This document shows positions 1,723 to 61,736 of a stretch of 64,000 nt of DNA, one piece after another. Numbering within the stretch: the stretch's first letter is position 1; each line of letters starts with the position of its first letter. The notes beneath the pieces are model-generated. The model had not been told where the DNA came from, ran no database searches, and was given only the letters and a program-made list of their open reading frames with translations. The translations under genes and the position numbers were made by a program. Source of the stretch: Morchella semilibera (Eukaryota > Ascomycota > Pezizomycetes > Pezizales > Morchellaceae); NCBI GenBank assembly GCA_009192285.1, contig CM018610.1, positions 372,001-436,000 of the forward strand, in the 5' to 3' direction.

Positions 1723-1739
1723 CGAGTGATGCGTTGTGA
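1723..1739 (-). repeat. Dispersed bipartite 17-mer
   Basis: Reads TCACAACGCATCACTCG on the minus strand. Confidence 0.6.
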
Positions 1740-1800
1740 TTGATATTCTGTGCTGGGTCGTGACTGGGGCACTTGTTTCTTCCTTTTTTTTTTTTGAGGG

Positions 1801-1912
1801 GTATATGTTTGGCATGGCTCATCCTCCTCCTGCGCATTGGTGCTTTTGAGGGGGGATAAGCCGTACGGTATATGTTTGGCATGGCTCATCCTCCTCCTGT
1901 GCATTGGTGCTT
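1801..1912 (+). repeat. Direct duplication of 45 bp, period 67 bp
   Basis: Copies at 1801-1845 and 1868-1912 start GTATATGTTTGGCATGGCTC and end GCATTGGTGCTT. They differ at one base (C/T in TCCTGYGC) and are separated by 22 unrelated bases. The near-identity suggests a recent local duplication. Confidence 0.9.
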
Positions 1913-3313
1913 GCTCTCAGCCTAGCCGCTGGTGGTATGCAAGTGTGTTGTGCGGCCGCTCTTCCCCCCGTGCGGGCCCCAGGGTTAGGGGTGTGGTTGC
2001 TGTGTCCGGTTTAAAAGGGCGAAGGTGGCTTCCACCAGCGTGCGTTGAGAGGCTGGGTTAGTGGTTGTGGTGGTGGAGGAAATGGGGTGGTCGTGGTGGA
2101 GAGGGTCCCCAGCTGTGTATGGGGGTGGGTTTGGTTCCTACCCCTGGTGGACTAACTTTTGTGTTTTTTGTGGGTGTATTTATTTTTGATTCTGGGTATT
2201 AGTAGGTTGGATGGATGTAAACTCATCGTGCTAGAGTGTCTTGCAATTGCAGTACTCTACCTGCAACCAACACACTAGCTAGTGGGAGGGAGGGAGGGAG
2301 GGAGGGTCCAGGAACAAGTCCCCCTCTAGCTCTGCCTCTGGATTGTAGATACATGTATCTACACACAAGCAGGATAGGACAGTGGCTGGTGCATCCTCGC
2401 CCGATCTCTGTTCCTTCCCAACCATCTTAGTAGTTGGATCTCATTCAGGGTTCCATAGCCTAGATTGTAAGCTTGCTTGTACTATTGAGGTTGTTTGCAT
2501 GTACCTACATGTAGTAATATACATACATGTATATATAGAGTACAGCGTATGCAGCTCCATGTATAATCAACAATGCTATTGCTGGTGACATGACCACCAC
2601 GGGGCCGTTATCTGCCGTATCAGATCCCAATTGATCTTCCCCGCTACTATTAGTTACATGACTATCAGTTAATGCTTGTAGATGGCTTATAAGTATAGAA
2701 CCTCACCAATCCCACCGCTATCTACTCTATCTACTCTATCTTCTCCAGCCAGCCTCTCTCTCTCACTCTCTTGGTACAAAATTAATATGCGTACATACAC
2801 TTACTACATGTAAGTACTGAACTCATGTATGTACTCTAAGCACCGATCGCGCTTATGCACCCTGCACCTGCACGCTGTCTCGAATCGGACCAGGGGGCCT
2901 AGAGTGTAGAGAGCCCTTAACCTATGTAGATCTACATGCCTAATAGGGTATACAGAGGAGGGTTAGGACTACTCTATTTCCAGCACTAACGGGCCTACTG
3001 ATAGATAATGCAATGCGGTGTGTGCAGCCTTCTCGTTTTTTTTTAACGGTTACGTGTCGTGTCGTTGGTGAGTTGTGAGACAAGCAGGCTTGACTTGGAA
3101 ATGTTTTGTTGGGTGCTTATTATCCTTGTTCTAGGTCTAGGTAGATGTTTTGGTTTCTAAGAACCTCTTTAAACGAAACGAAACGAAATGCCTATGCTGC
3201 TAAACTAAAAATGCAAGAAAAGAAATGAAGAAAAGACATTGGTAAGTATTGCTCCATCACAACGCCGACACACACAGGGAGAGAGAGAGAGAATGAAAAA
3301 GAAAAAGAAAACC

Positions 3314-4889
3314 TCAAATAGTATCACCTGGCCTCAGCTGATACTTCCTCTTAACCCTCCTCACCCACCTCCTCCTCCTCCACACACCCCTCTCCCCCTT
3401 CTCCCCACCAACCCTATCGTAGACCCACCTCTCACCCTCCTCCTCAATCTCTACGCCGCCGATGTATCTCTCCGCAACCCACACCGTGCTCCCCAGATCC
3501 AACGTCCACTTCCTGTCCATCCACTCCCACCCTAGCGGGCACCTCACATCCTCAAAGAACCGTGTCCCTTTTGGCCGCTCGCCTGAAATTCTGCTAGGCT
3601 CCATTGGATCGTATGGGGTCGGGCTGAAGATCCAGCTCTCGTATTCGCCTGCGGCGCCAGTCAGTCGCTGCAGCTCAAAGACTTCGACTTCGCGTGACTC
3701 GGGAGTGGCGTCGAGAATGATATCGGAGTGGATGAGGGAGTCTGTGGAGGCGGCTACACGGGCTTCCTGGGGTTGCAGGTGTGCGGCGTGGAGGTCGAGG
3801 AGGAGCTCTTGAAGGGTTGGGTGGCAGAGCGCCAGTCCGATCCAGCCAGAGATGAGGAATATAAAGCGCCATGGGAGCGCGGATGCCGATATGAACAGGA
3901 GGATGGAGGTCAGTAGGAGGGTTATGAAGACGGCTGATGAAACGACTTCGTCACTAAAGTTAGTTGGCGGGCCGATTAGGGATATGACCTTGTCATGAGC
4001 TACAGAAAAGTCGTCCATGGTGTTTTGAAGGTCGCGGAGATTGCGAAAGAAGTCCTTGCTCATCTCGCTGACTGCCTTCACTTCTGGGGGAGGGGCAATG
4101 GCAGGGCCGTGGGCATTGTAATTCTCCATGTGCATATTTGGCGGCGGTGGATGACGGATTATGAAGCTGGGGACCATGATGAAGAGGAGCACGCAGGCTA
4201 CCGGGAGCACAGCGAGAAGGTAAGGGTCTAAACAAACGAAGGAGTAGACTGCAAGGGCAGCGAGAGTGTGAGAAGGTTGCTGCCACTGGATGAGCCGTAT
4301 CAGTCGGTGCTGGAAGACAAACACCACACCGATTCTACATATCGCAAAATTAGAAAGAATTTCAAAAGTGTCTACTTGCTGACAAGAAAAGTTTCATCTC
4401 CACGCACTGAGGCCTGGAAACATATATTTCTCACCAGCAAATAGGAACACTAGATGAAGCTCCTCACCTCGCATTGAATCTCCTAAAGTTACTGCTCATG
4501 GTCGTCAAGCTGAACTGCGGCCTATCCTTGTCCCTCCTCTTGTCCCGTGTATCCGCATAGCTTTCCCACGTGTAATCGCTCGGCAGCATCTGCTGCATGA
4601 GCTTCGCAAATATGCGTTCCTGCAGCCCCGTAGCTCCGCCGGTACCCTCCGATGCATCTCCGTGCACGCTCCCGCTGTCTGAACCGCGCGACTTGTTCCG
4701 ACGATGCTGCTTATGTGCGTGGTGAGCTGCCCCTGCCAGACTTTTCCCGAGATCACGGAGGCTGGGAGATGGTGATGTGGCACGGCGACGACGGGTGCCA
4801 CTGCTAGTGGCGTCGTTCTCGGAGTCACTCATGGAGTACCTCCGATTTCGGAGACTAGGATCATAGTCGACGAGAAGCGAGTCGTCCAT
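3314..4889 (-). CDS. Pex24/Pex28/Pex29-type peroxisomal membrane protein with DysF domain
   Basis: Integral peroxisomal/ER membrane peroxin of the family that controls peroxisome number, size and ER contacts. Exon 1 is 4468-4889 and exon 2 is 3314-4334 (minus strand). The intron 4335-4467 has a GTGAGG donor and TAG acceptor and splits an Arg codon; the total is 480 residues. The N-terminal 140 residues are basic and Ser-rich and end with LQERIFAKLMQQMLPSDYTW, the family's entry motif. A hydrophobic block follows (LAALAVYSFVCLDPYLLAVL...FIMVPSFIIRHPPPP), then a second one (AVFITLLLTSILLFI...FIFLISGWIGLAL). The C-terminal DysF region shows EVFELQRLTG, WIFSPTPYDP, GTRFFEDVRCPLGWEWMDRKW, WVAERYIGG and GERWVYDRV, ending in a run of Arg residues. 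The assignment to Pex24/28/29 over the related Pex30-32 group rests on the LQERIFAKL and CLDPYLL motifs and is less sure than the family itself. Confidence 0.88.
4335..4467 (-). other. Intron of the peroxin gene
   Basis: 133 bp on the minus strand, GTGAGG donor and TAG acceptor. Exon lengths 422 and 1021 sum to a multiple of three. Confidence 0.8.
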
Positions 4890-5670
4890 GTGGTGGTGGT
4901 GGTGCTACAGCTGCTGCTCTGGTGTTGGTGGTGGTGGTTTGTTTGCGGGAGTTGTGTGTACTTGTAAGAGTGGTTCCGGCTGATTGACATGTGAAGCTGG
5001 CTTGATGACGTCGGAAGACGTGACAGATCCGGAAGGATTTATGTTACCCGGCAATGGTTTGAGTTCTTGGTAGATATGTCACGTGACACAATTGTTTCCA
5101 GGATGTTTAAATGGATTCTGGGGCCGGAAATTGTGGTGGTTTACTATACTCTCGTCTCGAGTACAAACGGAAACAGATCATCGAATCTAAAATCTGGAGA
5201 GGAGAGTCAGAGTGTGTGTGTGTGCATGTGTGTGTGTGTGGGGCTTGGAAATGAAACTTCATCAATATATATCTATGATATCTATTGGAGAGTTGAAGAG
5301 GGAGCTCTCATACGTGCTCTATTCTCACCCATATACCCCTCATTTCACATTTGTTTCAATTCTTCTGCGTGGCATGCTGGATAAACGACGATGCAGATGG
5401 AGGGGGGAGTTCTATTCAGGAAAAGTATCGTGAGGTTTGCATTCGGGGGTGAGATTCGGTGAGGAGAGACCCCGAGCAGCAGCTAGCAGTGGTGTAATAT
5501 AAAATAATATCATAGGTCGTTGACGTTCATAATAGGCACAAGACCAGTAACAAATGGACATCACACCTCAGCCACGTGCAGCCGAAAAGGGTCCCCTAAC
5601 CTGTGGGGTTGAATGGAATAATTCCCCCAAACTAGACCGATGCAGGTAAAGTAAATAAACGAAACGCTCG

Positions 5671-5943
5671 CTAAGACCAGCGCAAAGCAGACATCGCCAC
5701 GGCAACCAGAAGGGAAACCACCACCCCAGTACCCTTTAGAACGAGGGGGACTGCTGGCAGTTGCAGAAGTGTGTGCATTGTGCAGCAGCTGGCTAACCCA
5801 ACCACAGCTAAGGATCCCAGCAGAGCACCACAGAAGGGTTTCTCTGCCTTGCCAGAGGAAAGTGTTGTTGGGGTGCAGCGCAGCTGCTGCAGCAAGACAT
5901 CAGACATACATACAGACGAAAAGAAAGAGAGTTGGCTCATCAA
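5671..5943 (-). CDS. Possible small hydrophobic protein (unproven)
   Basis: An uninterrupted 90-codon minus-strand frame with two ATGs near its start (the second begins MSDVLLQQLRC). The C-terminal two thirds has two hydrophobic stretches (GALLGSLAVVGLASCC and GVVVSLLVAVAMSAL) that could be membrane helices. I recognise no family. It lies in a promoter-like spacer and could be a chance frame; the length alone is not significant. Confidence 0.2.
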   Translation of the reverse strand: MMSQLSFFSSVCMSDVLLQQLRCTPTTLSSGKAEKPFCGALLGSLAVVGLASCCTMHTLLQLPAVPLVLKGTGVVVSLLVAVAMSALRWS

Positions 5944-6058
5944 CTGTCATCAGTTGAAGATCCCCTGAACCTCTCCCGCTTCTTCCCTACTACGTACGTT
6001 TACTGTTGCCTCATTGCTCTATATCTACAAAGAGGGAGAGAGGGGAAGGGGTAAAAAA

Positions 6059-6083
6059 GAAAAAAAAAAAAAAAAAAAAAAAA
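6059..6083 (+). repeat. Poly(A) tract
   Basis: An uninterrupted run of about 24 A between the peroxin and kinase genes. It could be a retroposed tail, but no target-site duplication or coding remnant is visible beside it. Confidence 0.8.
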
Positions 6084-7296
6084 GGAGAATCCATAAATAT
6101 TCATTGGGAGAGTTAAGAAGAGTTGGAAAAACAAAGTAATAATAGGTCATCTAGTATAGAAACGAGCCCCGACAAGCGTTTCTCATGTAACTATCCTTAA
6201 CTACATACATCTGTGCGTTTCCCGGAGCACGACAGGTACAGCAGTGATGTAGATTACAGGGAATACATGAAGTATGTATTTATGTACGTTAAAGAGAAAC
6301 GTTCTTCACCGTCAGTCACTCCATAATTCAGTCACCGAACTTCTTAGGGAAGTTACAATACCAGTTTTCTGGCCGGTGTCACCGAGGGGAACAAGAGCCT
6401 CCTCTCTCTCTCCACCTTCATCTCTCTTTCATAGGGTCTTAGGGCCTGGACAGAGAAATTCATCGATCGACTACATACTGCTGCTGTACCTACTCTCTGC
6501 CCACGCCATTCCCTTCCCATCCCACATATAGTTCCAACTCATCTGTCGTTCTTCTTTGGGAAACTCATCTTGGCCCGTTTATTCATCTCCGCAATGTGTC
6601 GCGGCTTCCACACTTAGCCATCGAGACAAGCAACATCCATTAATTACTTGTACTTACATGTTCTGCTCCTCGCCGCTGTCTTAGCAACGAGTTGTTCCTC
6701 CCCTAAAAAGGTGTTGTTATTGTGTGCGTGTGTGTGTGTTGCTCCTCTATTACTACTCCTCATCTCATCTCGTTGCCCTTGACCTTGAAATTGTAGTTAA
6801 TTCTTTTCCACCCATTCTGGATTTTCAAGACCCTGAACTCCTTGTTCAGTTTTCCTTCCATCCTTCCACTCTCTTTTTTTTTTTTTTTTTTTTTTCAGGG
6901 TTCTAAAATATTTCCTACAACCTCCCCCCACCCCTAGTAACTTTCAATCCCCCGTTAAACTTCCTTTCATTCATTTACTCTCGCTCGTCTACGGTTATCC
7001 ACCCGTTCAAGGCCTAGTTTGGGTTCACTCCAAACCCCACCCCTTTTCACGCTCCACAGATTCTCTAATCATCCACCCCCCATCCCATCCTTCCACACAA
7101 AACAAAGTTAGTAAGTTTTGTGAGATCTAGAGTGTGAGAGAGTGTGAGAGATAGTGAGAGTGAGAGAAGCCAGCTCCTTTCACCGTTGTTGTTGCTGCCG
7201 CTGCTGCTTCTCTATCTATCTTCTAACGCAGTCCTCCACTCACCCAGTCCAACCACTCGCACCACACCCAACGCCTGTGGCAGCAGCAGGCTCGTC

Positions 7297-7954: not shown

Positions 7955-7990
<36 letters not shown>

Positions 7991-12283: not shown

Positions 12284-13487
12284 TTATGATTGAAATGATT
12301 ACTACATGACTCTTCACCCTCTATACTTATTCCTGTCTTTTTCTTCTTTCTTGTCGATTTTGCCATGTTTAATGATCATTCTCAAAAAAAAAACCTCTTT
12401 TATTTTTATTTTATTTTTTCGCGTGAGGGAGTTTTTCTTTTAACGGTTATTTCTTTTTTTTTTCTCCTCTCATCACCGCGGTACTGGGTAAGGCTGGGGT
12501 TTCATCATGTTATGGATTTTTTGTGTGCGTGTCTGGTCGAGCATCTATTTTTCTTCCTCCTCTTTTTGTCCATTGTTCTTATTACTTATACATACTACGT
12601 ACTTTTATTTTTAATATCAACGGTGCGGTGGGAGAAAAAGGAAAAAGGAAAAGAAAAAAAAAACGCAAAATATCAGTCTTTGTTTTCTCTTCGGAGTGTT
12701 GAAAGAACGCGGGCCAGTGCTAATTCTCTCTTTTCTGCGCAAACAGGGTGTGGGGTAGGGATAATACCCAGGCTCTCTCCTTTTCCCCTTCTCTTTCTAT
12801 ACCACTTACCTTCTCTCTTTACTTTTTTATCCCTACCTAGTTTTGCCTTAAATTTTTTTTGCTTCTCTTCTTGTTATAACTACCATTTGCTAGGGGGTGT
12901 TTTTCCTTTTCCCTTTCTCTATCTTGGGTCCGGTTTCGTTTCTGTTGGCGGGGGGGTTGATCAAAAAAAACAAAATTTAAACTATGTTGTTACTCGTCTG
13001 TCTATCTGTCTTCTGGATTGTATTGCCTGCTGCAATTTCATAGAGGTGGTTGGAGTCGGTTGGTCGGTTGGTCGGTGTGGGTTGGTTTGGAGGGGGGGCG
13101 ATGGTTTGTTGGTTGGGTTTGCGTCTATTGATACCTTTCTAGCTGCGCTGCTCGAATCGATAACTACATGATATACACAACACAAATGCGCATTTGTTCC
13201 TCTCTCTGATGGCCGTTATATGCTACGCATTATTCGATTGTTTGTTACTCATGCGCTTACTACATGAATCTGCTTACATGCATGTAGGTCTGGGGTATGG
13301 GGGTAGAGGGGTAGAGGGGAGGCAAAACGAAGCACGACACCACTCACGTCTTACTATGTAGTGGAGGGGGGGGGTAATCTGGCGGAGGATTTTGGGCAGG
13401 CGGTTGTATACATATGTATATAAGTTGTATCTGTATCCACTGTACCCTCCCCCTTCCCTCCCCTTCCCCTTCCAACGTGGGATTGGA

Positions 13488-13504
13488 TCACGACATATCA
13501 CTCG
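13488..13504 (+). repeat. Dispersed bipartite 17-mer
   Basis: TCACGACATATCACTCG, forward. Confidence 0.65.
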
Positions 13505-14507: not shown

Positions 14508-14524
14508 CGAGTGATATCCTATGA
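14508..14524 (-). repeat. Dispersed bipartite 17-mer
   Basis: Reads TCATAGGATATCACTCG on the minus strand. Confidence 0.65.
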
Positions 14525-15368
14525 TCTATATAGCTTGAGAAAGCTACATCTAGTCACGTGGGCTCACCTCCTGGTCTCGACCTTTGTTTTCTAACAACTT
14601 ATAGATGACGGCCGTGTTTGTATGAACGGGCTAAGGGGTAGTGGGCATGCAATAGGCTGAGAGAGAAGTCTTTCTATCATATCATCTACGCCTAAAACTG
14701 CGGATAAGGCACTACTATTGGTGAACCGATGCTGGCACACATCTACCCCGGCCTGGAGATTTCCTGGCCACTATATCTCCCCTCTTGCAACTATTTGGAT
14801 GCCAGAGTTAGGATTACCCTCGGAGATAGCAGACGTTTTGCTCTTGCTCTCTGCCTCTTCTGGGAACAGTGAGATCGAGAGCTGGCTTTTTTGACCTGCA
14901 TTCCCAGCCCATTTGGGCTATTAAATACCCCTCCGCGCCGGGAATATCGTCTATGATCACCTCCCCGTGACATATATCTGCGGAAAGCAGGTGGTGGTTT
15001 TACCTATGCGCGGGGACACCTAGCCTCAGACAAAGTGAAGCTAAACTTTCGTCTTATTAAACAGGCTTTCAGAGGCCGGGGGATGGCCCCATGGTCTCAG
15101 CCTCTGCTCTAGTCCTACTTTTAAAAGTCACTGTTGATGGTAGTAAAACACTGCACCAATGTGCTGTATCCTGACTTCTAAAGCTTACTTAAAGAAATCC
15201 TTTTTTTCTCTCTCTCTATATCGAGCGGACTGCCGGCTAATTGCAACAGTCCGAAACCGAGGTGGTGTATGTTCAAAAGCACAGCCTGCCTACCTATGGC
15301 AGCTGCACCTTCTCCGGATCTGCCCACCTCAACTCATACCCAAACACCGTCCTTCTCAGCTCACGATC

Positions 15369-19198: not shown

Positions 19199-19350
19199 TG
19201 TACAAAAGGGTGATGGTGTAAGTATACTACTTATCGTTAAGATTGTGTCGGTTCCCCCGTGTAATCACGGGAATAGAGGGAATAGATGAAGGCATGAAGA
19301 TTTAATTTTGGGTACGGAATGCACGTGACTGACACACGATATGATGGTCG

Positions 19351-19367
19351 TCATCGGGTATCACTCG
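19351..19367 (+). repeat. Dispersed bipartite 17-mer
   Basis: TCATCGGGTATCACTCG, forward, in the far upstream region of TRP2. Confidence 0.65.
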
Positions 19368-24270: not shown

Positions 24271-24990
24271 AATTTAATCTTCATTTTTTTCCCTTTGGTA
24301 AAGGTTGTACGGTTGGGGGCGTTGTATATGATCTTTTTTTCCCTTCTTCCAACTTTCTACATAACAGTAGCTGTTACCTTTTCATATCCCCTCATATAAG
24401 GCCGAGGATAGAGAACTTCTACTTTATGGAACGGGATACCCTGTTCTTTTTTAGAGTTTAATTTTTTTTTCGTGGGGATCATCAACTGATTTCCATTCCT
24501 CTTTTCTCTTTTCTCTTTTTTTTTCTTTTTTTTTCTCATTCATTTCGTCTCCTTCTATCTCTTAACTACATGTATAGTTAGAGTTGTGGGCATAGATAAT
24601 TTTTCGGGCAGATAGATTCATACATATCAAAATGCAACATCTATCCTCTATTTCAGACACTTCCACCTCAATTCGTGCCCACTGGTGGTGCAACAGGCAC
24701 TCGAGTCGCGAGGAGAGCGGGGAGAAAGAAAAGTTTAATTCACAGAGGTAGCTAAGATCTGGCGGCGAGATCCGTGGCCAGCAGCCTATCTACCTACTAT
24801 TTTGAGGATGGGAGTGGGGCGGAAGTTCGCCGCTTCTTATTCCAACTTCATGGGCTGGTGGAATATAAGTACATGTATGTGTGAGGCATCAAGAGTGCCC
24901 TTCATTTCGTTGCTGTCAGGGAGTGCCTTATATACGTGTATGCTACTACATATCCCAGCCCGCGTACACATGACACTTAATCTAAGTGGA

Positions 24991-25007
24991 TCACAGAATA
25001 TCACTCG
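24991..25007 (+). repeat. Dispersed bipartite 17-mer
   Basis: TCACAGAATATCACTCG, forward. Confidence 0.65.
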
Positions 25008-25775: not shown

Positions 25776-25792
25776 CGAGTGATATTCTATGA
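25776..25792 (-). repeat. Dispersed bipartite 17-mer
   Basis: Reads TCATAGAATATCACTCG on the minus strand; differs by one base from the copy at 24991. Confidence 0.65.
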
Positions 25793-26272
25793 TTCAGCGC
25801 TAGAACACAAACGAAACAACGCTGCTAGATTACCCCCCCCCCCTCACCAAACACAAAACGACAGGCCCCTATGTTTTGGTTTAAATTAAATAGACACCTC
25901 ATTGCAACCCTAGTTCTTTCCCGGCATTTGTAATTCAGAGGCCACAGATGCAGAAGGTTACATGCACACACACTCTCCCTTCCATGAACTGGATGATCTA
26001 GCCCATTCTATGCTATGAGAGGGTTTCATAATTATAGCTTAGATACATTCAGCCGCCTAGCTACCCGCGCAAAAGGCACACCGACATACCCCTACTCTAC
26101 CCCACGGAGAACACACACCACCAACACACAGACCACCAACATGGGCCAGCCCGCCCGCCCGGTCGTCACCACAAGGAGGGTGATGAGGAGGAGAAATGCA
26201 TGTTTACACCATTGAGCCGCTGGACCCACACTCTCGGGACAATAGACAGACGGCTACGTGAGTCGAAACACG

Positions 26273-26289
26273 CGAGTGATGCCTCATGA
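26273..26289 (-). repeat. Dispersed bipartite 17-mer
   Basis: Reads TCATGAGGCATCACTCG on the minus strand. Confidence 0.6.
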
Positions 26290-26403
26290 CGCAAATTCCC
26301 AACAACAGGATGAATGGGTTTCCTACACAGGAGAGTACCGTCTCTGAGAATTAAGAGACTCTAGATCTATTCTCTACGGCCCCGGAAAGCTAGATACCCC
26401 GCT

Positions 26404-26475
26404 CCCATGCAACAAAAGACTTATGCCCCCAACAAAAGAATTATGCCCCCATGCAACAAAAGACTTATGCCCCCA
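26404..26475 (+). repeat. Imperfect tandem repeat, about three units
   Basis: Units are built on CCATGCAACAAAAGACTTAT followed by GCCCCC; the middle unit lacks CATG and has AATTATG for ACTTATG. No reading-frame role is visible. Confidence 0.85.
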
Positions 26476-26880: not shown

Positions 26881-29800
26881 GAGTACATGTATATGTACTC
26901 CTAGTAAACAAGTACATCAGTCATAATCCGTAGACTCTAGCTCGAACCCACATCACATCTACAGCGTAGGGCCCATGCTTCCGCCATCACCAAGCACCAT
27001 CACCACCACTCAGACCACCAACTCCTACCACTGAGAGCAGTACTAACACCGCCATGAAACCCACCACCCGCATCTCGAGAGAGTGTGTGTGAGAGAACCC
27101 TATACGGCACTACTACACACCGCACACGGCCATTCTTCCCACACTACTCATATGCCCAGAAGGTTGATTGGGATAGTTCTTGGAGATGCTGTGACGGTAT
27201 ATAATATAATAACCAACGTCGGCAGGAGCCAACATATGCCAACGACAACTATATGTACATACATACATCTAGATACCCACCCACCCACCCACTCCTAAGC
27301 CTACTCTCCACATAGAGCAGTCTACATACACACACCCCAAGGCAGCGCAGCGCATGGCGGACCGCACCCCCAGCCCAGTTACGCAGATATGGAACAAACG
27401 GTAGATTCAACCCTACGGGGACCACCAGGCGGTGGTGGTTGTTCGTGGGTAAGCCCGAGTGACCGCCCATGATTGGACAAAATACTGACATGCGCGGATG
27501 TAATAGGCTAGGAAGATCGGAGAGAAAAAAACTTCTAGGTGTCTCACATTCAACCATGGGTGTTTGAGGTGGCCCTACCCTGGGGGGGCCGGAACAAAAC
27601 CAGACAATTTGTAGAGCTCTCACAACGCTAGAGACTGTGCTTCTGACTCCGGACCCTCTCTCCTCTACCCGATCATATGTATGTACGGTAAATTCATACA
27701 AGAGGCCCTACTCGTAGGTATAGCCTCCAGTAGGGGAAGGAAGAGAGAGAGGGGGGGATAATACCTCGGATCCCTGAATAATACATGATATACTAATAAT
27801 CGATATATTCAGCAAGGATATAACCCTCACATATGTACCCCACCAACCGGACGGGTCAGTAGTAAAAGCAAAAATTGTGTGTCTCTCATCTGGCGAAGGA
27901 AGGGGCCGAAGAATCTTTTTTCTCCCTCTTTACATATCAACCAAATATTTAAAGTATTTTTATTCTAGCCGGCAGGATGATCACAACACCAATCTACATC
28001 TCCAATCTAATCTACAATTTACCATGGCGGCCGCATATAATTGTATATTTGATCCGGGATCATCCCACCGCACAAATAAGCAGAGAAAGCAGAAGGAAAG
28101 GGTGCCCGGGTTAAAAAAAAACCGTTATTGATTTGCTTGAGCACCCACAACACCCACAAAACTGCGGTGACCCCTCGCTCGGGGTATAAACCCGAGATAC
28201 ATATATAGTAGACAGAGAAGAGAAATTGCAAGCAAAAGTAATTGATCCTAATTAATTCCCTGGATGAGATGTGCCAGCCAGCCAGCCAGACGTGCATACC
28301 ACAGCAGCAGCATCGGCAGCTGCAGCAGGCATCAACGCACCTAGCTACCCTACCCTATTAAATACCCTCAGGCAGACAAGTGAGTAGATGAGCAATTCCA
28401 TACCTACCATACCAATGCCAATCAATTACAAACGTTAAACCCGCCGCACTACATACATATGTACGGCACAGTATGTACATACATAGACTCTGTAGACTAT
28501 TGAGACGTATGTAAATCAGATTGCTATCCTGCAGCGCGGATTGCAATTGCGAATGTCTCGATCCTTGATATTGATAACGGTGGTCCATTAACTGCCATGT
28601 GGCCCAGTCGGGGGTGCCCATCATACTACCTACATTTACATACTACTTTTACTCTGCTTATGCTTCCTTCCATGCAGGGTCTCGTCATCCGCATTACAGC
28701 AAGTCGCCGTTGGCTGACGTTGCGGAGCACGCCGGCGGTGTTAGTAGAATCATGGAAGTGTGTATATGCCTGCTCTAGAGTTCTGGAGTATGTAGGTCCT
28801 CTAGGTCAGAGTGGAATGGTAGAGAGTGGAGAGACGTCTCCAGAAGCCACGGCGTAGGACATCCTGCGGCGGGCGAGGGGGCTCCGCAATCCAAGTGCGG
28901 CGAGCAAGCATCAGAGCTCCAAGTATCCCATCGCCAGTCCGAACCATCATCACCCTGCTAGAGTAGAGCGAGCATAAGTCCAATATCCGTCCGAGATAAA
29001 CCAGAGATGAGGTTGACCCAGCCAATCACCTCTCGGTAGTCACGTTTCCACAACTCAGCCCGATATTCCCGGCCGCCGGCGCACGATGCAGATGTGTGCT
29101 ATCTAGATCCATCTCGACGTCCTGTCTCTCTGGTCTGCCCTAGCCTACGTACGTACTCTTGTCTCGCTTTCCCTGGTCTTTGGTCTGATCTGGTCTGGTT
29201 CTCAATAATTTGTTCTCCATGTACCAAAACTCTTATTTTTTTATTATTGCACTTGAAAAACCCGGGAGTTTCGTTTGGCCCCCAAATATCCTGCTTTTCT
29301 GTGCGGTCCGACGTGGGGTGGTAGTACCTGCTGCGCTCTCGCGCGGGCGCACCACAGGTATAAGGAGGGGTACACACATGTACATACTCTAGGATGCGCA
29401 CCAAAAACATGGTAAGTAAAAAAAAAAAGAAAAAAAAAAAAAAAAAAGAGTGTCGGGGAATATAGGTTATCACCAACATTTGATGAGGGTTTTGAAATTG
29501 GTATGTAACTACTCTAGCTATCGAGAGCACGAGGACAATCCTACCCCTCGACACCGGCAGAAATAAGAGGCGATGGTCGGGGCGGGCGCGCGGGCGGTGT
29601 TTTAGGCTAGGGACGAGTACCCGAAACCCATAGGATAGCTATAATTATATGTAGCTAGTAGGTTGGAGGTGGGGAAAGGAAGAAAAAGGCAGGAACAAGA
29701 AATCGACAGTAACAAAAAAAGAAATTGCGGCCGGATGAAAAAAAAAACGATAAGTGAAAAAAAAAGTCACGATGGTCGTGCAAGACGCGCTATAGGTGAT

Positions 29801-39664: not shown

Positions 39665-40521
39665 TCTGTTCTGACTTCTTCTCCTCTTACTACTACACAC
39701 TTTTTTTGTAGATCTAATATTTGGTATATTTTGTCTTTCATCTTCGCCTGTTTATATTTGTCTCCTTTGTTTTGGATAGGGGGCGGCTGTTATTACTGTA
39801 TTCTTTTATGTTTGGTTGTTATTCACTCCTTTCTAATGGCCTCTTTTTTTTTTTTGGACTCCGTTATAGTTTCTCTCCCTCCTTTATTCTCTTCTGTTAT
39901 GTCCTTCATTCAGTATTATTAGCATTGGGAACGGTTTAGAAGGTGGTTTGTTTTTCTTTTTATCTTAGAAAAGGGTTATTATTCATAGTTTTGGTCTTGT
40001 GTTTTTTTTTATTCGTAGAGTGGTTTTTTGGAATTGTTTTGCGGGCAGGCGGGGCAGTAGGATGGCGGGAGTTATGACTTTCCTTTTTTTCTCTCTTCTT
40101 TGGGTTTACCCAATACTCTTTCTGCTCCTCTACACCTTCTTCTTGTGTGTATCTGTCTTTTCTTTTCTTTTCCTTTTGTTCATGCATCTTATGTATAAAA
40201 TCGGGCCGGATAGCGTTGACACTAGGCGTTCTCCTGTTTCTTGTTTATATATAATGGGTTTTATTATTCTTATTTGTCCCTTCATTTTGTAAGAGTACAT
40301 AACATTGGGGGGGGGGGGCGGTCGCAGAGGGAGGGCCGTTCACCCGTACAATATAAGTGGTGGATTACCTTACATCATGGTTATATTACGGGTTGTTCCC
40401 TGTGCATATCAGTGATTGATATATGTAGATCTTCCGGATTAACTGGTGGTTGGTGGGCGTGCTTGTGATACGTATAGTTTTTGTTGATATTGGTGTGAAG
40501 AGCTGAATGTAGGTGGTGTGG

Positions 40522-40538
40522 TCATGAGCTATCACTCG
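40522..40538 (+). repeat. Dispersed bipartite 17-mer
   Basis: TCATGAGCTATCACTCG, forward, preceded by GTGTGG. Confidence 0.65.
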
Positions 40539-40748
40539 ATTTTCACATGGAATACTGTTAGAGTTGCCGCTGGAACCAATCCACACACTAACACCATTGG
40601 AGTTATTGGCAATAATAAAGACTTATTGGGAGGTGTCCTTGCGACCTACATCTACTATGTACTGTAAAGTGGTCTTTTGCGCGCGCGCTTGGCATGTTAC
40701 CCTGCCCGCAGCCAGGTATCATAGCAACCCAGAACACGTATATTACAG

Positions 40749-40955
40749 GGCAATGGGTTTAACTGGCGGGGATGGGAATTGGGGGAGGAGCGGAGAGGGG
40801 GGGGGGGCGAAGGCCCTCATAACTAACCGTAGAGAGTGGACTGCAGGCAATGGGGTTATATAACTGGCGGGAATGGGAATTGGGGGGGGAGCGGAGGAAA
40901 GGGGGGGGGGGGGGGCGAAGGCCCCCATAACTACATGTACATACCGTAGAGAGAG
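40749..40955 (+). repeat. G-rich dispersed repeat, copies 2 and 3 in tandem
   Basis: Copy 2 is 40749-40836 and copy 3 is 40846-40955, period about 97 bp. Both run GGCAATGGG-TT...AACTGGCGGG-ATGGGAATTGGGG, then GAGCGGAG, a G10-G15 run, CGAAGGCCC-YCATAACTA and CCGTAGAGAG. Copy 3 includes TACATGTACATA, absent from copy 2. Confidence 0.88.
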
Positions 40956-41249
40956 GATTTAATTGTCTACAGCTACCGCTGTTCCCTAGGATTTAAACAA
41001 CTCGCGGTCGCGAGGTGGTAACCCCTAGTGGAGTATGTACCGCCATTACTCGAAAAATTGGCTATGCATATGAGGTCAAAATTGCTATAAGCAGACCTGA
41101 TCTACGTCCTTCAACCAATCGTGAAGGAGGTAATCCCTGGCCGGAGATAGCCAATTTTCCGGGTTTTTGCGGTATTACATCAGGTCAAATGATTATTGTG
41201 TCACCACCTCGTCGTCTATATGCCAAGACATATTTATATAAAAGGGCTC

Positions 41250-41338: not shown

Positions 41339-42575
41339 ATTCAAATCAGAGAAGCCAGTCAAGAAAGCCAAAGCCTTTCATACATATTTTTTCTACTCTC
41401 ACCAATACATGAACGGAGCCAAGAACTGATTACAATCCCTCCCCCCCCCCTTTTACGCCCAGTAATAAAATAGGCCAATCTAAAAGTCACCAGCCAGCCC
41501 CTCGAGAGCTAGGAACCCCCACGCGTGTAGGGGCCAACTCTTTATCGTGGGCATGACGATAAGGTAGATAGCAAACCCATTGGCCTACCCCAATTATTGC
41601 GGCTGGTGTGTATACTCTCTTGATTTTATCTGTAAAGTTGGGGCTAGGAGTAATGGTGGACACGATACATGAAAAGACCCTTATACCTTGTATCGCCTCG
41701 GCCCGTCTGGCTCTACCATAGTATAGTCTTGATGATACCGAGACCCAAGGTAAGCCTCGGCACAAAGCCTTGAGACTGATACACGAAACCGACCGCTCTC
41801 AAGGCTTGTCAACTCCCCAAAGTAACTAAGAAGCTAGCCAAAACGCCTAAATGAAGATTGTATTAGAATGGTTCGCGTTGTTCGCCATCACTCGGGAGTC
41901 TCATGACTTCAGAATAGAGCCCTAGGAGCCTCGTTTCGTGCCCATAATTAACTAGGGGGTGCTAGGTTCGCCATCTCTAGAGAGAACCCGAGTACATTCC
42001 TTGTGTGCTCTATTCGGAAGCACCTATGGCTGTTGGTATACTAAGTCGCCAGAGTGGCTTTTTAACGTTAGCTCTAACAGCCTTCGCTATTAATAGCCGA
42101 CCATTAATACCTCCCTTTTGCCAAACAAGAGAGCCTAAAGCACCCTTACCCATCCACCAAAACGGTGCCGACATTCCTCAGTACCTACGTATGTTCTATG
42201 ATCCTAACGCAGGCGTGATAAACATAAAAAGGCAGGGTCTATGTCCTGGCCAATGACCCACGGAACGGAAATCCGCCATATTTATTATCGAATAGCAAAC
42301 AATTGACCACGGGCCTTTGCGATCTTCTAATAGTAGCAGATATCTTGCTACTAGGCCTCTAGCTTTTTTTTTGGAGCCTATACAGGTGAGGCGGGACGGG
42401 AATAGTCATACCGTTCGTGGTTTGATTATGGTATGTGTTTTGCGCAGGGAGGTTCCCTGGTTAGCTTGGGGTCCTCAACTCACCAGCAAGAGTTGGGTTA
42501 ATTTTTGAGCCGATCCGAGAGGTCTTTGTAGGGTATTGGGGGATGTGGAATTATGTTCCTCCCGTGTGATTGTCG

Positions 42576-42592
42576 TCATGGACTATCACTCG
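42576..42592 (+). repeat. Dispersed bipartite 17-mer
   Basis: TCATGGACTATCACTCG, forward. Confidence 0.65.
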
Positions 42593-43874
42593 CTCTGGTT
42601 CTACTAGCGCGTACCTTGGACGGGTACTTCGAAAGAGGTCGATAAGCCACACCTACCTACCCTCCTCATAAGCATCCTCTAGCAGCCCAAATGAGTTTTT
42701 GGAAACGAGCCCATAGAAGCTCCGAATCTACCAAAAGACCCCCACAGGCAGATACACACCCCCACGGGTACCTCAAAGGCCAGCGTAGGCAAGTCACCCC
42801 CACCACTAGCACGAAGATCCAGCAGAAAGACCCAGCAGCCTACAGAAGCAACTCGAGCCCAAACATGCCTCGGCCATGCTTGACCAAGCAGCTGTGCGGC
42901 GGTACGCGCAAAGAATCTAAAAACGAGGCTCGAGCCCGTTTCGGCAGGGAAATCCCAGATCTGAGATCGAAGGTGCGCAGCGGAGATCTAGGGTTGACAG
43001 GGTAGGCAAAACCATAAGAAGATCTATTGGCTGATCAGCTTATAGACAAGACAAAACAGCACTCAAACAGGGCCTGCAAGGCGGAGGCGGTGGTGGTGGT
43101 ACGGGGGGGGGGGAGCAAAGGGCATTTCTACCCTTCATACATCAGTGGCCAAAAACAAAAAGGGGAAGTTAAGACCCGAAAGGTAGATGAAATTAGACCA
43201 TGTCAGCAAAGTCTCGTGCTGTTAGAGAACATGAAACAGTAACCCCTCTCCCCTTCCAAAACACACGCAGACCCGCATGTGCCGCGCTACTGTGACAGCA
43301 TAACTCCCAAACTGACAATCCGAATCCCACGCACAAATTCCTACCTGGACACTCATCTCTGGAACATACGGGGGGCCACTCACCTCCAAAATCCATCTGC
43401 AGCCCTACGACTTACATACATACAACGAGTCTGAAGCCCATCCTCTGGCTCCGCTCACCCTGTGATTCCTGCGGCCTAAGATACCAGCAACAGCATCAGC
43501 ACGAGCCCAGGTGTAGTCCCAACTAATCTAACCACCGTGACAGCAGCTGTAGGTCCGAGGGGCGGTACCTACACCTGGAAACGCAGAAACATTACTCATC
43601 CCATGATCACCAGCACCAATCACCTTTCCCCCGAAAGACTCGGGGAGTGGCCCGAAAAGATGCATGAGGTGGTTGGTGGTATGTGCCCGAGTACATGATC
43701 TACCCAGCCAGCCTTATCACGTCAGCCTTGCGCTACATACGAGAATCCATTATCTACCCCGCACCGTGCGGGTTTGGGAACACACGGGCCTGAACTATAC
43801 TAACCCTAACCCAAACCAGTGATCAAATTGATGATGGTGTTGTTTGGGGTGTTGGTCAATGTCGGTCAGTTGGG

Positions 43875-43891
43875 TCACAGGATATCACTCA
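43875..43891 (+). repeat. Dispersed bipartite 17-mer
   Basis: TCACAGGATATCACTCA, forward; last base A. A second copy follows 56 bp later. Confidence 0.6.
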
Positions 43892-43930
43892 CGTTTTTCC
43901 CGGAAGTACATGTAGCCTGGGTAGTATTGG

Positions 43931-43947
43931 TCATGGTTTATCACTCA
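43931..43947 (+). repeat. Dispersed bipartite 17-mer
   Basis: TCATGGTTTATCACTCA, forward, same orientation as the copy at 43875. Confidence 0.6.
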
Positions 43948-50288: not shown

Positions 50289-51186
50289 TTCGTGCTAGAT
50301 CTCATGTGGGTGGGTTGTGGAGGCGGGAGGTGGAGGGGGAGTTGTGAGGACCGTGCTTCTAACCGTCGACACCGATCGGCAGCGGCGACGACGGCGGCGT
50401 TTTGACTTTTTGTCTTGCCCTTTTTGGGGCGGGAGATTGAACGACGAGGTGGTGTTTTTTTTTTTTTTTTTTTTTTACATAGGTACTTATTAGAGCACTG
50501 GCTAAGTACTCAATGTGCTCTATCGAGACTTCACTGCTATCGATAGTCAGGTCGGGCTATCGGTCCTGCTACATGACGCGACTACATGCAATGACTGCGG
50601 AGAAGGGATGGGTGGGGGGGGGGGGGTTCCTCCTCCTTCAATCTTGATTATCCACGATGTCTGTGCTGTAGTTAATTGCCCGCCCTACTGTCAATCGCTG
50701 ACCCACAAATTGCAGTTAGCAATGACAGCTCGGTAGAGACGCTGTACATGCAGTAGGTACATACAGCTGCAGAGTAATTTCGCTTATAAAGCCTAGTGAG
50801 TTGTTTGTCTACTGAAACGTCATATGTCATTTCCTCGCTCGCGCCGTCTGTATGCAGCAGGTAATTTCGCTTGTTTGCGCTTAATCATCGATGGTACCGG
50901 GCTTGATCGAATCTATCTGTGTCTTCCTTCAGGATAGATATGAATATGGGGGTGTGGAGATAAGGAAAAGCACAGAGGCCCAATCTACCTATAACTGAAG
51001 CTTGATAAACACATGTTGTTTTCCCATATTAGTCCTGCATATCTGTCCTCGTGGTATCCAAAATCTGTCTTTGTAGAGTATCACTCCATCATAGGTCTAC
51101 ATCGTTCCCCAGTTACTGCGGGTGGTGGTTGAGATCTGTGATACATGGGGAACCAGAGGTTCATAGGATCAAACTCGATTGTTGTG

Positions 51187-51203
51187 TCATTCCTTATCAC
51201 TCG
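51187..51203 (+). repeat. Dispersed bipartite 17-mer
   Basis: TCATTCCTTATCACTCG, forward. Confidence 0.65.
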
Positions 51204-51340
51204 GCCGCCTGTAAGCGACATTAGTCCGGTAGTGTTGGCACCTAGCAGTACTTTGAGCTTTTAGAGGCTATAAATGCTGTATCGCCTCCTACAATTAGAG
51301 TCTATAATTTATGAGTATCGCCTTTTGTTATCTAGGGATG

Positions 51341-51357
51341 TCATTTCCTATCACTCG
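51341..51357 (+). repeat. Dispersed bipartite 17-mer
   Basis: TCATTTCCTATCACTCG, forward, 154 bp after the copy at 51187. Confidence 0.65.
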
Positions 51358-51581
51358 AGGACAGGTAGTTGTGTCAAGCCCTGTATTCCCTCAAGGATCG
51401 TAAAAAGAGCTATTTCCACCATTATTAGCAGCTGCTACCGAAGCATTTACTCTGAATTACTACCTGATATCAAAGCAAACCAATTAACCAAACCCAACGA
51501 GAAAGAAAAAAAGAAAAGAAACCCGATTAAAACCCTATCTATGCTACTATCATATCTTACACTCACTGGCTGGTTAGATAT

Positions 51582-54250: not shown

Positions 54251-55084
54251 TTTTTGTTCTAAGGTTCGGGACAATTGTTGCGTAGGATCGGTTGGGCAGG
54301 TATGGAGTTAGCACATATGGAGAAAGAGTGTCAATGTAATCGTGGGCTCTCTCTACCACTATAGTGCAGGTGTGTTTAGAAGCTGCAACAATCACTGTTT
54401 GTTGGGCTATGAACTTTTTTTTCCGGATCTCCGATTTGCGCCTTCTTCCTTTTCCGTTGGGCTCTTTTACACCCAGCTGCTGTTATTCACTCTGTTCCAT
54501 TGTTTTTGTTGTTTCTTGTTTCCGTTTTTTTCATCTTCGTCTTGTCAACGAGTGCTGCAGTTGGCTGCGGTGCGGTTAATGTTCTTATGAAGAGGTGGAA
54601 GTGCATGGCGTAGCGTGGTCTGTGGTTAGTGGCGGCGACGGCAGCAGTATAGAGATGTGTGTTTTAACGCAGAGGCAACATGGCAATGCTTCTAATATAC
54701 ATACAGCTGTCCACCTTATCCTATACTCTGCGCATAGGCCTGTTACTATTAGTCAGATTTAGGTGGGTACATGTAGTGTTAGATGAATATATAACATATA
54801 CCGTTACAATGAAAATGTACCGTACCTCGAACTTAACAGTAAAAATGGTAAGTAACATGCACGACGAGTTTGAGGTTTTGGAGGCCTAGAAAATCACGGG
54901 CCATGTGATGACACGTGCAACATGATGAGTCAAGGGTTCAAATACATGTAGTTCATTGGCCCCACCGTTCTTGCAGTGTAATGTGCTTTTGGAGCGCGAG
55001 TGGTCTCCTTTCTTAAAAGCACACCCCCATTTCCTCTGCGCACCATAAGGAATAAGATATGACTGTTTGGTTATATATATATAA

Positions 55085-55101
55085 TCATTAGATATCACTC
55101 G
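55085..55101 (+). repeat. Dispersed bipartite 17-mer
   Basis: TCATTAGATATCACTCG, forward, after a (TA)n tract. Confidence 0.65.
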
Positions 55102-56030: not shown

Positions 56031-56047
56031 GCATGAAATATCACTCG
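56031..56047 (+). repeat. Dispersed bipartite 17-mer, one mismatch
   Basis: GCATGAAATATCACTCG, forward; first base G for T. Confidence 0.5.
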
Positions 56048-56778: not shown

Positions 56779-56881
56779 TACTCGTGTTTTTAAACGGGCT
56801 ACTATTGCACACCGTACAAAAACGCGCCAAGCCCATGATGCAATAGCGGTTTAGTCGACAAACTTCAGAACCTTACTCGTA
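56779..56881. repeat. Palindromic MITE-like element, diverged copy
   Basis: Begins TACTCGTGTTTTTAAACGGG, includes CTATTGCACACCGTACAAAA and CGCGCCAAGCCCA, and ends CCTTACTCGTA. The arms pair less well than in the neighbour with which it shares the centre and the terminal TACTCGTA. Confidence 0.65.
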
Positions 56882-57000
56882 TGTTCCTGACGTTTGTGAA
56901 AATGACCGCTATTGCATGCCATACAAATACGCGCCAAGCCCAAAATTTAGTATGGTATGCAATAGTGGTCCCCTTTACAAACGTCAGGAAAGTACGAGTA
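56874..57000. repeat. Palindromic MITE-like element, well-preserved copy
   Basis: About 50-bp inverted terminal repeats. The left arm starts TACTCGTATGTTCCTGACGT and contains CGCTATTGCATGCCATAC; the right arm, read in reverse complement, starts TACTCGTACTTTCCTGACGT and contains CACTATTGCATACCATAC. The centre is CGCGCCAAGCCCAAAATTTA. At 127 bp with no coding capacity it fits a non-autonomous DNA-transposon derivative. Confidence 0.82.
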
Positions 57001-57877
57001 CTCTACTAGTTGCATGCAGCTGCATGCAGCATGCGCGGGCAATGATGAGTGATCTCCATGACTCGTTCATTACAGCACTCCTAAGCCTAATTATGTTTTT
57101 TTTCTCTCCAAATATTATTGCAAGACTGTCAAAAAAAAAAAATTTGTGCTCGAATTTCAACATCCTTCACCAAAGAAACATCTTCAATAAGAGGGGCAAA
57201 AAACTCAAATCACGCCTTTTAGAATGCGTGTCTCCTTGGGTATTTTAAACTACACATTAATACCACCGTTTCGGGGTATGGTAGTAGAGTTACGAAAATA
57301 GGACCGAGTAAAAACAACAAAGGCACCTTCAGATAGGGAGACACGCATAGATAGGATGAGATAACAAGCATATAGGGGTGGAATAAGGAAATGGTAGATA
57401 GGCTTCGTATGTAAGCTCTAATCCATGGACGCTCAGAAATGAGCGCATAAGGGACTGTGTGGAAGTGGGGGAGAGAGGGAGGGGGGTAAGAGTAGCATGA
57501 TGAAAGAGAAAAGACACCCGTGACTTCATGAATTAAAAGAGCAGTATGTTAAAATAATGATCAAGGCTCCCAGACAAAAAAAAAAGACATGAAGGAAATT
57601 AGGAAAAAAAAAAAAAATGAACACCCCAAGCATGACCAATAAAAAGAAAGGAAAAAAAAAAGATGAGTGAAGACACCGCTGGAAAGATGCCTGCTCTCTC
57701 GCAATATAGGAGCATAGAAACCTCTGTAATCGTACAACCCCAAACTATACACAGGACTCCTCTTGTTGGTGGAAGTCAAGCTTTCAAAGAAGAGGCCTGC
57801 TGATTTTGTCGCCTCCCTGGTAACCTTTCTCTATGGTTTATTTCTGCCGATGACGAACAAGAGGATGTGGATACCGA

Positions 57878-59023
<1,146 letters not shown>

Positions 59024-59629
59024 ATTGAATGTTTTTTCTGCTACCTAGCAGTGTCAGGGAGAAGGTAAGTGGTTCGGAGCTTTTAATCGGTGAGTGTAGG
59101 ATATATGAGGAGTAGAGTTCGTTTCCAGCAGAGATCGAAAAGTCAAAACAAGTCTTAGGCACCAGGTTAGAGGCCTTAGGATAGGCTAGGCGTTGCCGCG
59201 ACAACAGCTGTGGAACTGTTCGAGAACGGAGTTTGGTGACAGCTAATGTACACTAGACAGAGAAGCGTTATGGAGGGAGTGTGGTGATGCGTGGGTGAAC
59301 AATTGGCTATGGCGGGCAGCAAAGTGGGGAGAGTATGCGATCGATGTTTGTGGTGTTGAGTGTTGTAGAAGATTGGATGGGAGACGAGGCAAGGCTCCGG
59401 AAACGAACAAAAAGGCCGGGAAAAGGAAAGGCTTCACGGATCCCGAGAAAAGGGGGGCCATATTAAAATTGGTTTATTTACATGATATTCGACGGACCCC
59501 AGCATCATAAGATCTACCAAACCATACTATCCAGTTACTTTTGAGAGGAAACAAATCATAAATCCGCCCTCTACCTCTGTTGTTTGCACAGTTGCGAATA
59601 GGGGCATCTCCTTTCCCTTGGTACCCACC

Positions 59630-59740
59630 GGTCGAATTCGGTCTCAATATCGCTGCAGCCCGTGATTTGTAGAATTGGAAGCAAAGCCAGTCCTTGGCAG
59701 TCCTTGGCACGCAATTTAACCACCGCGCCAAATCGAACAA
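59630..59740 (-). repeat. Possible tRNA-like SINE relic
   Basis: On the minus strand, TGGCGCGGTGGTTAAATTGC resembles a Pol III A box and D arm, and GAATTCGACC about 90 nt later loosely resembles a B box. Between them GGACTGCCAAGGACTG is a short tandem duplication. The box spacing is too long for a plain tRNA, and no acceptor stem closes it. Confidence 0.2.
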
Positions 59741-60820
59741 CGTTGATATCAAGCTGGCCAGGCCGAGACTAAAAACAGTGACCAGGAGTGTGAAAATCGC
59801 CAGGATTTATAGAGGAGGCTGCATCGCATGAATGTGATCGTAACTGTAAAGATCGATATGGAGGGAGTTAACAAGGTACCTAGCTTTGTTTACGTTTTTT
59901 TTTAAATGAACGTAATGTCCACATGAAGTTATATCAACTCCAGTCCGGCCCATAGCCATAGCATGTTACTTGACGGACCTCATGAGTTTGGTAGCTACTT
60001 TGGTGGAGTCAATGAATATCGGCGGGCTTTCTGATAATGAGGGCTAGGCCTTCAATACTGGGGAGATGCACATCCTAATCAAATCAAACCAGAACTGTAG
60101 CCTAGGGGTTTTGCTGTAGCATCAATAGGGTTATATATGCATGTACTATCTATATCACGGACACATATGTATATAGTATTAAAAATTTAGACCACGTGGT
60201 TTAATGCTATAATACTTAAGTATGTAGGCAGAGTAGGGGACTTTTTCTACATCCGGGACCGAAAGAATGCTTCCACCGCATCTTTAAGTATCCGCCCACC
60301 CACCTTAACGCTTATCCATTCAATGTCAAAGTGCTCACTCTAAGGTACTGGAAGGCGTTTCCCAGCATTGGGGCGGGCTTGCCGTCTATATTAGCACCAT
60401 ATATACATGTATTTACCAGGTAGAGTCAAAACTCTTGTGAGGTTTAGAACAAAGCTTTAGTTTAGTGTTTGATTGTGCCCAAAGTAGAAAATACATGTAT
60501 GCACAGTAGCACATCCTCCAGCCCGTTCGCCGCGTATGTGACCCTGGTTAAAAGAACCTTTGGCGTGCTAAACTACATGTACTGCCCTAACTTGTAGCTT
60601 GGCCAAGAACGACTGCAACACCGATAGCCAAGACCTGTTGTGCAATAGCTCCTGACTCTTTTATATCGCCACGACAACCACAAATGTGAAGCATTTTATG
60701 GTGAATGAGTGGGGGCCGATGATTGAAGTCACCGTATTAGTTGGAAGTAACCCTGTAATCGAATATCTTGCCATTTGGTAGCTATTCTTCGGCGCAGAGT
60801 GTTATGGTGTGGGGGGGCTA

Positions 60821-60837
60821 TCATGAAGCATCACTCG
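60821..60837 (+). repeat. Dispersed bipartite 17-mer
   Basis: TCATGAAGCATCACTCG, forward. Confidence 0.6.
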
Positions 60838-61719
60838 GCCCCCCCTCGCATTTCTGGATGATCCAACAGGTCCAGATCGTGGAGGGGGTGGAGGGGGTGG
60901 GCTCTTTGGACTAGGTATTATACTATATCACACGGCTTGCGACTATGGTACAGCCTTCCCGTTATAAAGGTTCTAACGCTCCGTAGCCTGCAGATGCACA
61001 ACCTATTGTTTACACTCTTCAGATGTCTACCGACACACCACCCCATATTCACAATACTCATATCGAATGAAAAACCCTAGCCCCGACTTATGTAGCCCAG
61101 GATTATCATCTCTTTGCTGTTGCTTGGGTTGAAACAAGTTGTCTTGGGGTGGGATAGTTCGCAGATTCATCTTTTTCATTCTAGGGGAGGCTGTATCATA
61201 TCACAATGCGAGCAACACACTAGAAGCTGAGGCCACCTCCGATCGCCCTACCGCAGATAAATCTAGCCATATAATGTCCGAAACTAAACATATGTACTAC
61301 TGTACCAGGGCATAAATTTTGGTATATTATACCCTTTACAGCCAAAGTACCCTTGTTTAGCGATCTAAACCAACCAACCACTCAGTGTTGGATAAAAACT
61401 TCATTGCTTGAGGAGACATTAGAAGTTATCTTAAGATGAGGTTCTAGAGCTTTGGGCCCACTTTCCATGTGTTTTTCAAGGTGGTCTTTCAAGGGTTTCT
61501 GATTTTGTATGGCATTCCCATACTGCAACGGCCATCAAAAACCACCAAACTTCTGTACATACATTGGTTATTTTTATATGAGGTTTTGATCGAGCGTTTT
61601 TTCTCTTTCTTTCTTTTTTCTCTTGGGGTGAACATCATTAGAATGAAAAAACATCACTCCATGTGTAGCAGCCTGTGGTTGTGCATATTGGTGTGGCTCT
61701 GGTTGTTGTGGCGGTTTGG

Positions 61720-61736
61720 TCATAGCTAGTCACTCG
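61720..61736 (+). repeat. Dispersed bipartite 17-mer, one mismatch
   Basis: TCATAGCTAGTCACTCG, forward; AGTCACTCG for TATCACTCG. Confidence 0.5.

Follow-up and report, generated by a model that had tools for sequence, protein, structure and literature searches.

What reads the short bipartite motif that recurs between the genes of a morel, and for what purpose might it be there in such numbers? The question is raised by a stretch of 64,000 nucleotides from Morchella semilibera (assembly GCA_009192285.1, contig CM018610.1, positions 372,001 to 436,000; hereafter the window), in which a first-pass annotation had listed 16 intergenic copies of the pattern TCAYNNNNYATCACTCR (hereafter the original pattern) and one near-match. 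In our view the motif is probably bound by a single, abundant protein of the host with a general-regulatory role, and a copia retrotransposon probably uses it as a landing mark.

A search of both strands of the window revealed 15 exact matches to the original pattern, while 100 dinucleotide shuffles contained an average of 0.02 and at most 1, the average being equal to the chance expectation of about 0.02 per window that had been given earlier. The 15 exact matches are listed sites and lie on the strands given, whereas the sixteenth, at 61720, has two mismatches and not one as reported; the near-match at 56031 does have a single mismatch. When the refined motif RTCAY-N5-RTCACTCR, described below, was employed, 17 exact sites were obtained. 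They include the sixteenth site (now starting at 61719), which has no mismatch to the refined form, and a site at 27456 on the minus strand that was absent from the earlier list, with two mismatches to the original pattern and none to the refined one. The sites in the window are as follows.

1723..1740, minus strand: motif ATCACAACGCATCACTCG
13487..13504, plus strand: motif ATCACGACATATCACTCG
14508..14525, minus strand: motif ATCATAGGATATCACTCG
19350..19367, plus strand: motif GTCATCGGGTATCACTCG
24990..25007, plus strand: motif ATCACAGAATATCACTCG
25776..25793, minus strand: motif ATCATAGAATATCACTCG
26273..26290, minus strand: motif GTCATGAGGCATCACTCG
27456..27473, minus strand: motif ATCATGGGCGGTCACTCG, refined form only
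40521..40538, plus strand: motif GTCATGAGCTATCACTCG
42575..42592, plus strand: motif GTCATGGACTATCACTCG
43874..43891, plus strand: motif GTCACAGGATATCACTCA, CTCA variant
43930..43947, plus strand: motif GTCATGGTTTATCACTCA, CTCA variant, 56 bp past the 43874 site
51186..51203, plus strand: motif GTCATTCCTTATCACTCG
51340..51357, plus strand: motif GTCATTTCCTATCACTCG
55084..55101, plus strand: motif ATCATTAGATATCACTCG
60820..60837, plus strand: motif ATCATGAAGCATCACTCG
61719..61736, plus strand: motif GTCATAGCTAGTCACTCG, refined form, two mismatches to the original pattern
56031..56047, plus strand: near-match GCATGAAATATCACTCG, one mismatch to the original pattern, a doubtful member

The abundance of the motif is not limited to the window. 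In the genome of 56.76 Mb (23 contigs, cited below as C with their number), the original pattern occurs 5,010 times (2,550 + 2,460) in exact form, compared to 13 occurrences (10 + 3) of the reversed pattern, which is a large genome-wide excess. Similarly, 6,042 exact copies of the refined motif were found versus 15 for its control, and 8,435 places match RTCAYN4YATCACTCG with at most 1 mismatch versus 78 for the control. As some contigs are duplicated (C9 and C10 are identical over 9,842 bp), the number of distinct sites is somewhat smaller than the number counted. In the open-licence literature no description of the motif or of motif-linked targeting was found and, for the word TATCACTCG, no fungal motif by title was present among the matches listed.

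In the refined motif two RTCAY half-sites follow each other in one orientation at a distance of 10 bp, and the second is completed by CTCR; this architecture agrees with the earlier remark that two half-units are separated by one helical turn. The spacing is strict, as had been claimed: in 214 kb of sequence, which contain one duplicated stretch (L039), YATCACTCR occurs 40 times, and TCAY precedes it by exactly four bases in 29 cases and never by three or five. The 11 occurrences that lack TCAY at this spacing are close to the chance estimate of 6-7, which suggests that both halves are needed, and the right half alone was therefore rejected as a functional unit. In 61 exact sites, information drops at the edges of the motif, save for a preceding purine (52 of 61) and a weak preference for purines in the spacer. 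The flanks are unrelated, in agreement with the first-pass annotation, and since they share nothing the motif copies are not fragments of a transposon.

For the placement of the motif relative to genes, coding regions were predicted with a self-trained hexamer model, a crude one that overlooks exons; roughly half of the sites tested come from 3-kb stretches of one contig. None of 60 sites was located in predicted coding, compared to 15.9 expected at random positions in the same stretches, and the same was true for all 74 sampled sites of either motif form. The 17 sites of the window also fall outside predicted coding blocks, as would be expected from the earlier statement that no site lies in an exon. 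For the 49 sites with a neighbouring gene prediction, the nearest predicted coding end was a 3' end in 30 cases and a 5' end in 19, the control being about even under this crude gene model. The sites thus avoid predicted coding and do not appear to be tied to gene starts, and a factor acting only at promoters is not supported, as gene starts are not preferred under this model. Some smaller features were noted around the sites. On the TCAY side of the 74 sites, the adjoining 40 bp are slightly G+T-rich (0.557 versus 0.503, s.d. 0.014); pairs of motifs on the same strand occur 53, 54 and 56 bp apart in stretch L032 (position 844), in stretch L017 (position 1500) and in the window (position 43874), respectively; and several sites have a palindromic word similar to CTACATGTAG nearby (flanks of the window sites 13488 and 43875, and stretch L004).

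A repeat common to L007 and L037, two stretches with the motif, starts at an equal short distance past the motif in both. This repeat is the long terminal repeat (LTR) of a Ty1/copia retrotransposon, with a length of about 200 bp (205 bp in the copy of stretch L046) and the edges TGTTGAG...CAAACA. An LTR search led to at least 41 matches; the query itself is counted among them, as are a copy split into two pieces and further copies that sit on duplicated contigs. Five pairs of LTRs on the same strand have an overall span of 5.5-6.2 kb, and the copia-type reverse transcriptase domain RVT_2 was detected inside all five of these full-length copies; paired LTRs, RVT_2 and the 5-bp target duplications of 17 among 19 insertions described below agree with the assignment to Ty1/copia. 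The LTR itself was considered as a carrier of the motif and rejected, as its best match (L007 copy) has 4 mismatches. Further copia-type reverse transcriptases were found at C1:4544704, C1:5376962, C17:5857, C4:182244 and C1:1470189.

In order to analyze the host DNA next to the element, 5' flanks were taken for the top 20 outer LTR ends in the ranking, with the query and five inner LTRs excluded, and C22:1587254 was dropped because its 5' flank is the same as that of C1:4433749. For the resulting 19 distinct insertions the 3' flanks were also taken; the selection was blind to the motif. A further 13 lower-ranking LTR rows, corresponding to 12 distinct insertions (one C12/C13 pair), lie outside this sample. 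When up to two mismatches to the original pattern were allowed, a motif was found 16-20 bp from the LTR in 17 of the 19 insertions, with 7 of these motifs being exact, 7 having one mismatch and 3 having two. The distance amounted to 19 bp in 13 cases, 20 bp in 2, 18 bp in 1 and 16 bp in 1. In all 17 cases the CTCR end faces the element, irrespective of the orientation of the latter: the motif lies before the 5' LTR in 8 insertions and, in the opposite orientation, after the 3' LTR in 9. Motifs facing outward, with at most two mismatches, were limited in the 19 insertions to a single one at 53 bp. When 500 column-shuffled motifs were run on the same flanks, an average of 0.33 hits and a maximum of 3 were obtained, as compared to 19 hits for the real motif.

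Of the 19 insertions, 17 are bordered by identical target duplications of 5 bp, and so are 16 of the 17 insertions that have the motif. Such intact duplications indicate that each insertion arose separately, in host DNA where the motif was already present. No common sequence is evident among the duplications, which indicates that the target is set by its distance from the motif. In 18 insertion-linked copies of the motif, position 9 can be any base, position 10 is A (13), G (4) or C (1), and single exceptions occur at three further positions; positions 9 and 10 are variable in insertion-linked and genomic copies alike.

Four LTR copies were encountered in stretches that had been gathered for other reasons. 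In stretch L037, which was unselected, an exact motif is present at 19 bp together with a 5-bp duplication, and in the likewise unselected stretch L046, whose LTR is an old copy with 83% identity to the query, the refined motif occurs in exact form 20 bp past the 3' end, with the duplication TTTCT. Stretch L001 had been chosen for another motif 1.3 kb away and contains an LTR of 76% identity; at its 5' end, the only end available, a motif with two mismatches lies 19 bp before the LTR as counted by eye. The copy in stretch L007 (19 bp, imperfect duplication) was not counted, as this stretch had been chosen through its motif. Also, the genome was searched for exact LTR edges combined with the right half of the motif. 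The 5' edge gave nine places, one of which is the C22 duplicate; C8:129977 and C2:3115681, which are not among the 19 insertions, both show a distance of 19 bp as calculated from coordinates. Nine places were also obtained with the 3' edge, eight of them among the 19. Reversed patterns at either LTR edge had no match genome-wide, and no place in the genome was found where the TCAY side faces the LTR, a search made for the 5' edge only. Insertions of this element thus occur at a fixed distance from the motif and on one side of it.

To locate one side of a 17-base mark with an error of a base or two, a retrotransposon must read either the motif or an object bound to it. As motif copies outnumber the LTR matches obtained by a factor of more than 100 and none was seen in predicted coding, a host protein would be the most economical reader. 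We infer that the motif is read by such a host protein and not by the integrase, that only one protein is involved, and that it has a general-regulatory role, as well as any fork-barrier activity it might possess. A strict motif present between genes in thousands of copies (5,010 or 6,042, with 0 of 74 sampled sites in predicted coding) is what would be expected for the sites of a general regulatory factor. Of the earlier suggestion of an Abf1/Reb1-like regulatory site, the part stating that the site is bound is well supported by the copia insertions at fixed distance, and the regulatory part is putative. The protein would occupy thousands of intergenic sites and contact the two RTCAY half-sites, one helical turn apart, from the same face of the helix. 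As a general regulatory factor it would keep intergenic DNA accessible and might block polymerases or replication forks. In the bound state it would serve Ty1/copia as a landing mark by tethering the integration complex on the CTCR side, and this complex would join the ends at a fixed place, which would give rise to the 5-bp duplication and put the LTR, in most cases, at 19 bp from the motif.

Some observations weigh against a host protein as landing mark. Insertion C2:2340390 has an intact duplication and no motif, C1:3334277 has no duplication and only a one-mismatch motif at 59 bp, and C1:4727825 has no motif in the 5' flank, which was the only flank read. At C5:884962, a place obtained with the 3'-edge pattern, the distance between LTR and motif appears to be 25 bp. 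Unlike a classical promoter factor, the motif shows no clear preference for gene starts (30 3' ends versus 19 5' ends), and A/T tracts, whose excess is a feature that a nucleosome-free region might show, are not in excess near the sites (0.108 observed, 0.147 in the control, s.d. 0.041).

Other readers of the motif have to be considered. A distance within one base of 19 in 16 of 17 insertions is what direct protein-DNA contact would give, and the reader might be the copia integrase, or some other protein encoded by the element, without any host protein dedicated to the motif. However, 6,042 motifs compared to at least 41 LTR matches, the avoidance of coding and the strict form of the motif would still need a reason on the side of the host; since, moreover, LTR integrases are not known to read so long a site alone, we regard this explanation as improbable. 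Even less can be said for a tiny mobile element that produced the copies or left them behind as remnants, as had also been proposed in the first-pass annotation: the copies are dispersed and numerous, as such an origin would predict, but the 61 sites have no shared flanks, the internal spacer varies freely and, according to the target duplications, the LTR-linked copies are host DNA outside the element. This origin is exceedingly improbable.

Two explanations retain a bound site and differ in what it does. The motif could be a polar replication-fork barrier or terminator, with integration following arrested forks and not tethering alone. The one-sidedness of the insertions (17 of 17, with no opposite-side match at the 5' LTR edge) is in agreement with this idea, as are sites that are not limited to gene starts, and according to the excerpted text of PMC5371812 Tf1 requires fork-arresting Sap1 sites in one orientation. 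However, the geometry of a tether also yields one-sidedness, and we consider a role for arrested forks rather unlikely, though worth keeping in mind. A chromatin-boundary or insulator site with a CTCF-like role would account for a long asymmetric motif with thousands of copies on both strands, located outside predicted coding and without promoter polarity; it would fit less well with the close grouping of several sites, for example the three same-strand pairs 53-56 bp apart, and is unlikely.

The proposed host protein used as a landing mark can be compared to known systems. In Schizosaccharomyces pombe, the insertions of Tf1 accumulate at positions -9 and +19 with respect to the motif of Sap1 (PMC5741268, in excerpt). 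Excerpts of PMC5371812 and PMC5368702 describe Sap1 as a general regulatory factor that also acts as a polar barrier to forks, call it the main determinant of nucleosome-depleted regions and state that its fork barriers matter for targeting. A value of 63% or 73% is given in the available part of PMC7175516 for Tf1 insertions at Sap1-bound sites, which is a different measure from the 17 of 19 insertions with a motif reported here. In both cases an LTR retrotransposon inserts at a nucleotide-fixed distance from the motif of a genome-wide DNA-binding factor, the latter being putative here. In contrast to Tf1, the present element is a Ty1/copia element by its RVT_2 and inserts on one side only. 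Tf1 belongs to Ty3/gypsy. The number 19 shared by Tf1 and the present element depends on the motif boundaries chosen; the parallel lies in function and does not imply that the factor is Sap1. Tentatively, and leaning slightly towards doubt, we propose in a more far-reaching version that a new master DNA-binding factor with about 6,000 RTCAY-N5-RTCACTCR sites is a fork-arresting general regulatory factor, and that a copia element convergently uses the Tf1/Sap1 trick there, one-sided and with near-single-base precision.

For Ty3, insertion takes place 1-4 bp upstream of tRNA start sites (PMC5911963, in excerpt). In the Ty3/TFIIIB and Ty1/RNA polymerase III systems of Saccharomyces cerevisiae, host DNA-bound complexes also guide the integration of LTR retrotransposons, but unlike the sites studied here their targets are RNA polymerase III genes. 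ARAGORN detected no tRNA genes in the window, and the motif does not resemble the consensus of an A- or B-box. GalEa-type Ty1/copia elements of filamentous ascomycetes have LTR edges TGT...CA, LTRs with a mean of 235 bp (range 138-311) and target duplications of 5 bp; the available part of the source (PMC5445492) does not mention that they insert next to a host motif as the present element does. The present element is similar in LTR edges, LTR length and duplication; the GalEa clade as such is defined by its phylogenetic placement and an unusual primer-binding site. Abf1 and Reb1 of budding yeast would be alike in their proposed role as abundant sequence-specific intergenic factors, but the motif is different from the Abf1 and Reb1 consensus. 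The Abf1 family PF04684 had no match in the genome in a search where the positive controls were unmatched as well, and Reb1 was not searched; identity of the factor with Abf1 or Reb1 has no support.

To our knowledge, general regulatory factors of filamentous fungi are little known, and the motif provides a strict and abundant site for a putative one. Natural insertion footprints suggest that the motif is read in living cells, and a short DNA probe could now retrieve the factor. The retrotransposon represents an independent test of how integration complexes locate a bound protein within a base or two. If the system is convergent with Tf1/Sap1, it would suggest that the same kind of landing mark has been adopted by LTR elements of both main superfamilies.

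Other features of the window and the assembly were also observed. Positions 40650-41040 contain a dispersed repeat of about 390 bp with seven other long copies of 85-95% identity among the matches listed, and 41036-41180 a separate unit of about 140 bp with about 30 copies, 89-97% identical, among the matches listed. The dispersed repeat at 40650-41180 was considered as a source of the motif and rejected, as it contains no motif copy. Repeat units with a 54-bp inverted repeat, 83% complementary and with a 19-bp loop, are present at 56787-57000 and perhaps constitute a small foldback element. A short array at 26401-26475, near the motif site 26273, has units 20-24 bp apart with AACAAAAGAMTTATGCCCCCA. 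With regard to the assembly, C12 and C13 show 99% identity over 2 kb and 94% over 4 kb, C21 and C22 share repeat positions, and the 5' flank of one LTR insertion is found on both C1 and C22; the near-equal pairs C9/C10, C12/C13 and C21/C22 are perhaps partly phased haplotypes or duplicated contigs. A search for 5.8S rRNA led to a single match, which scored below the family cut-off. Protein families encoded in the window comprise Pex24p, anthranilate synthase and ThrE, and another protein has yeast YKR070W as its only solved relative; together they speak for a fungus, and probably for one of the filamentous ascomycetes.

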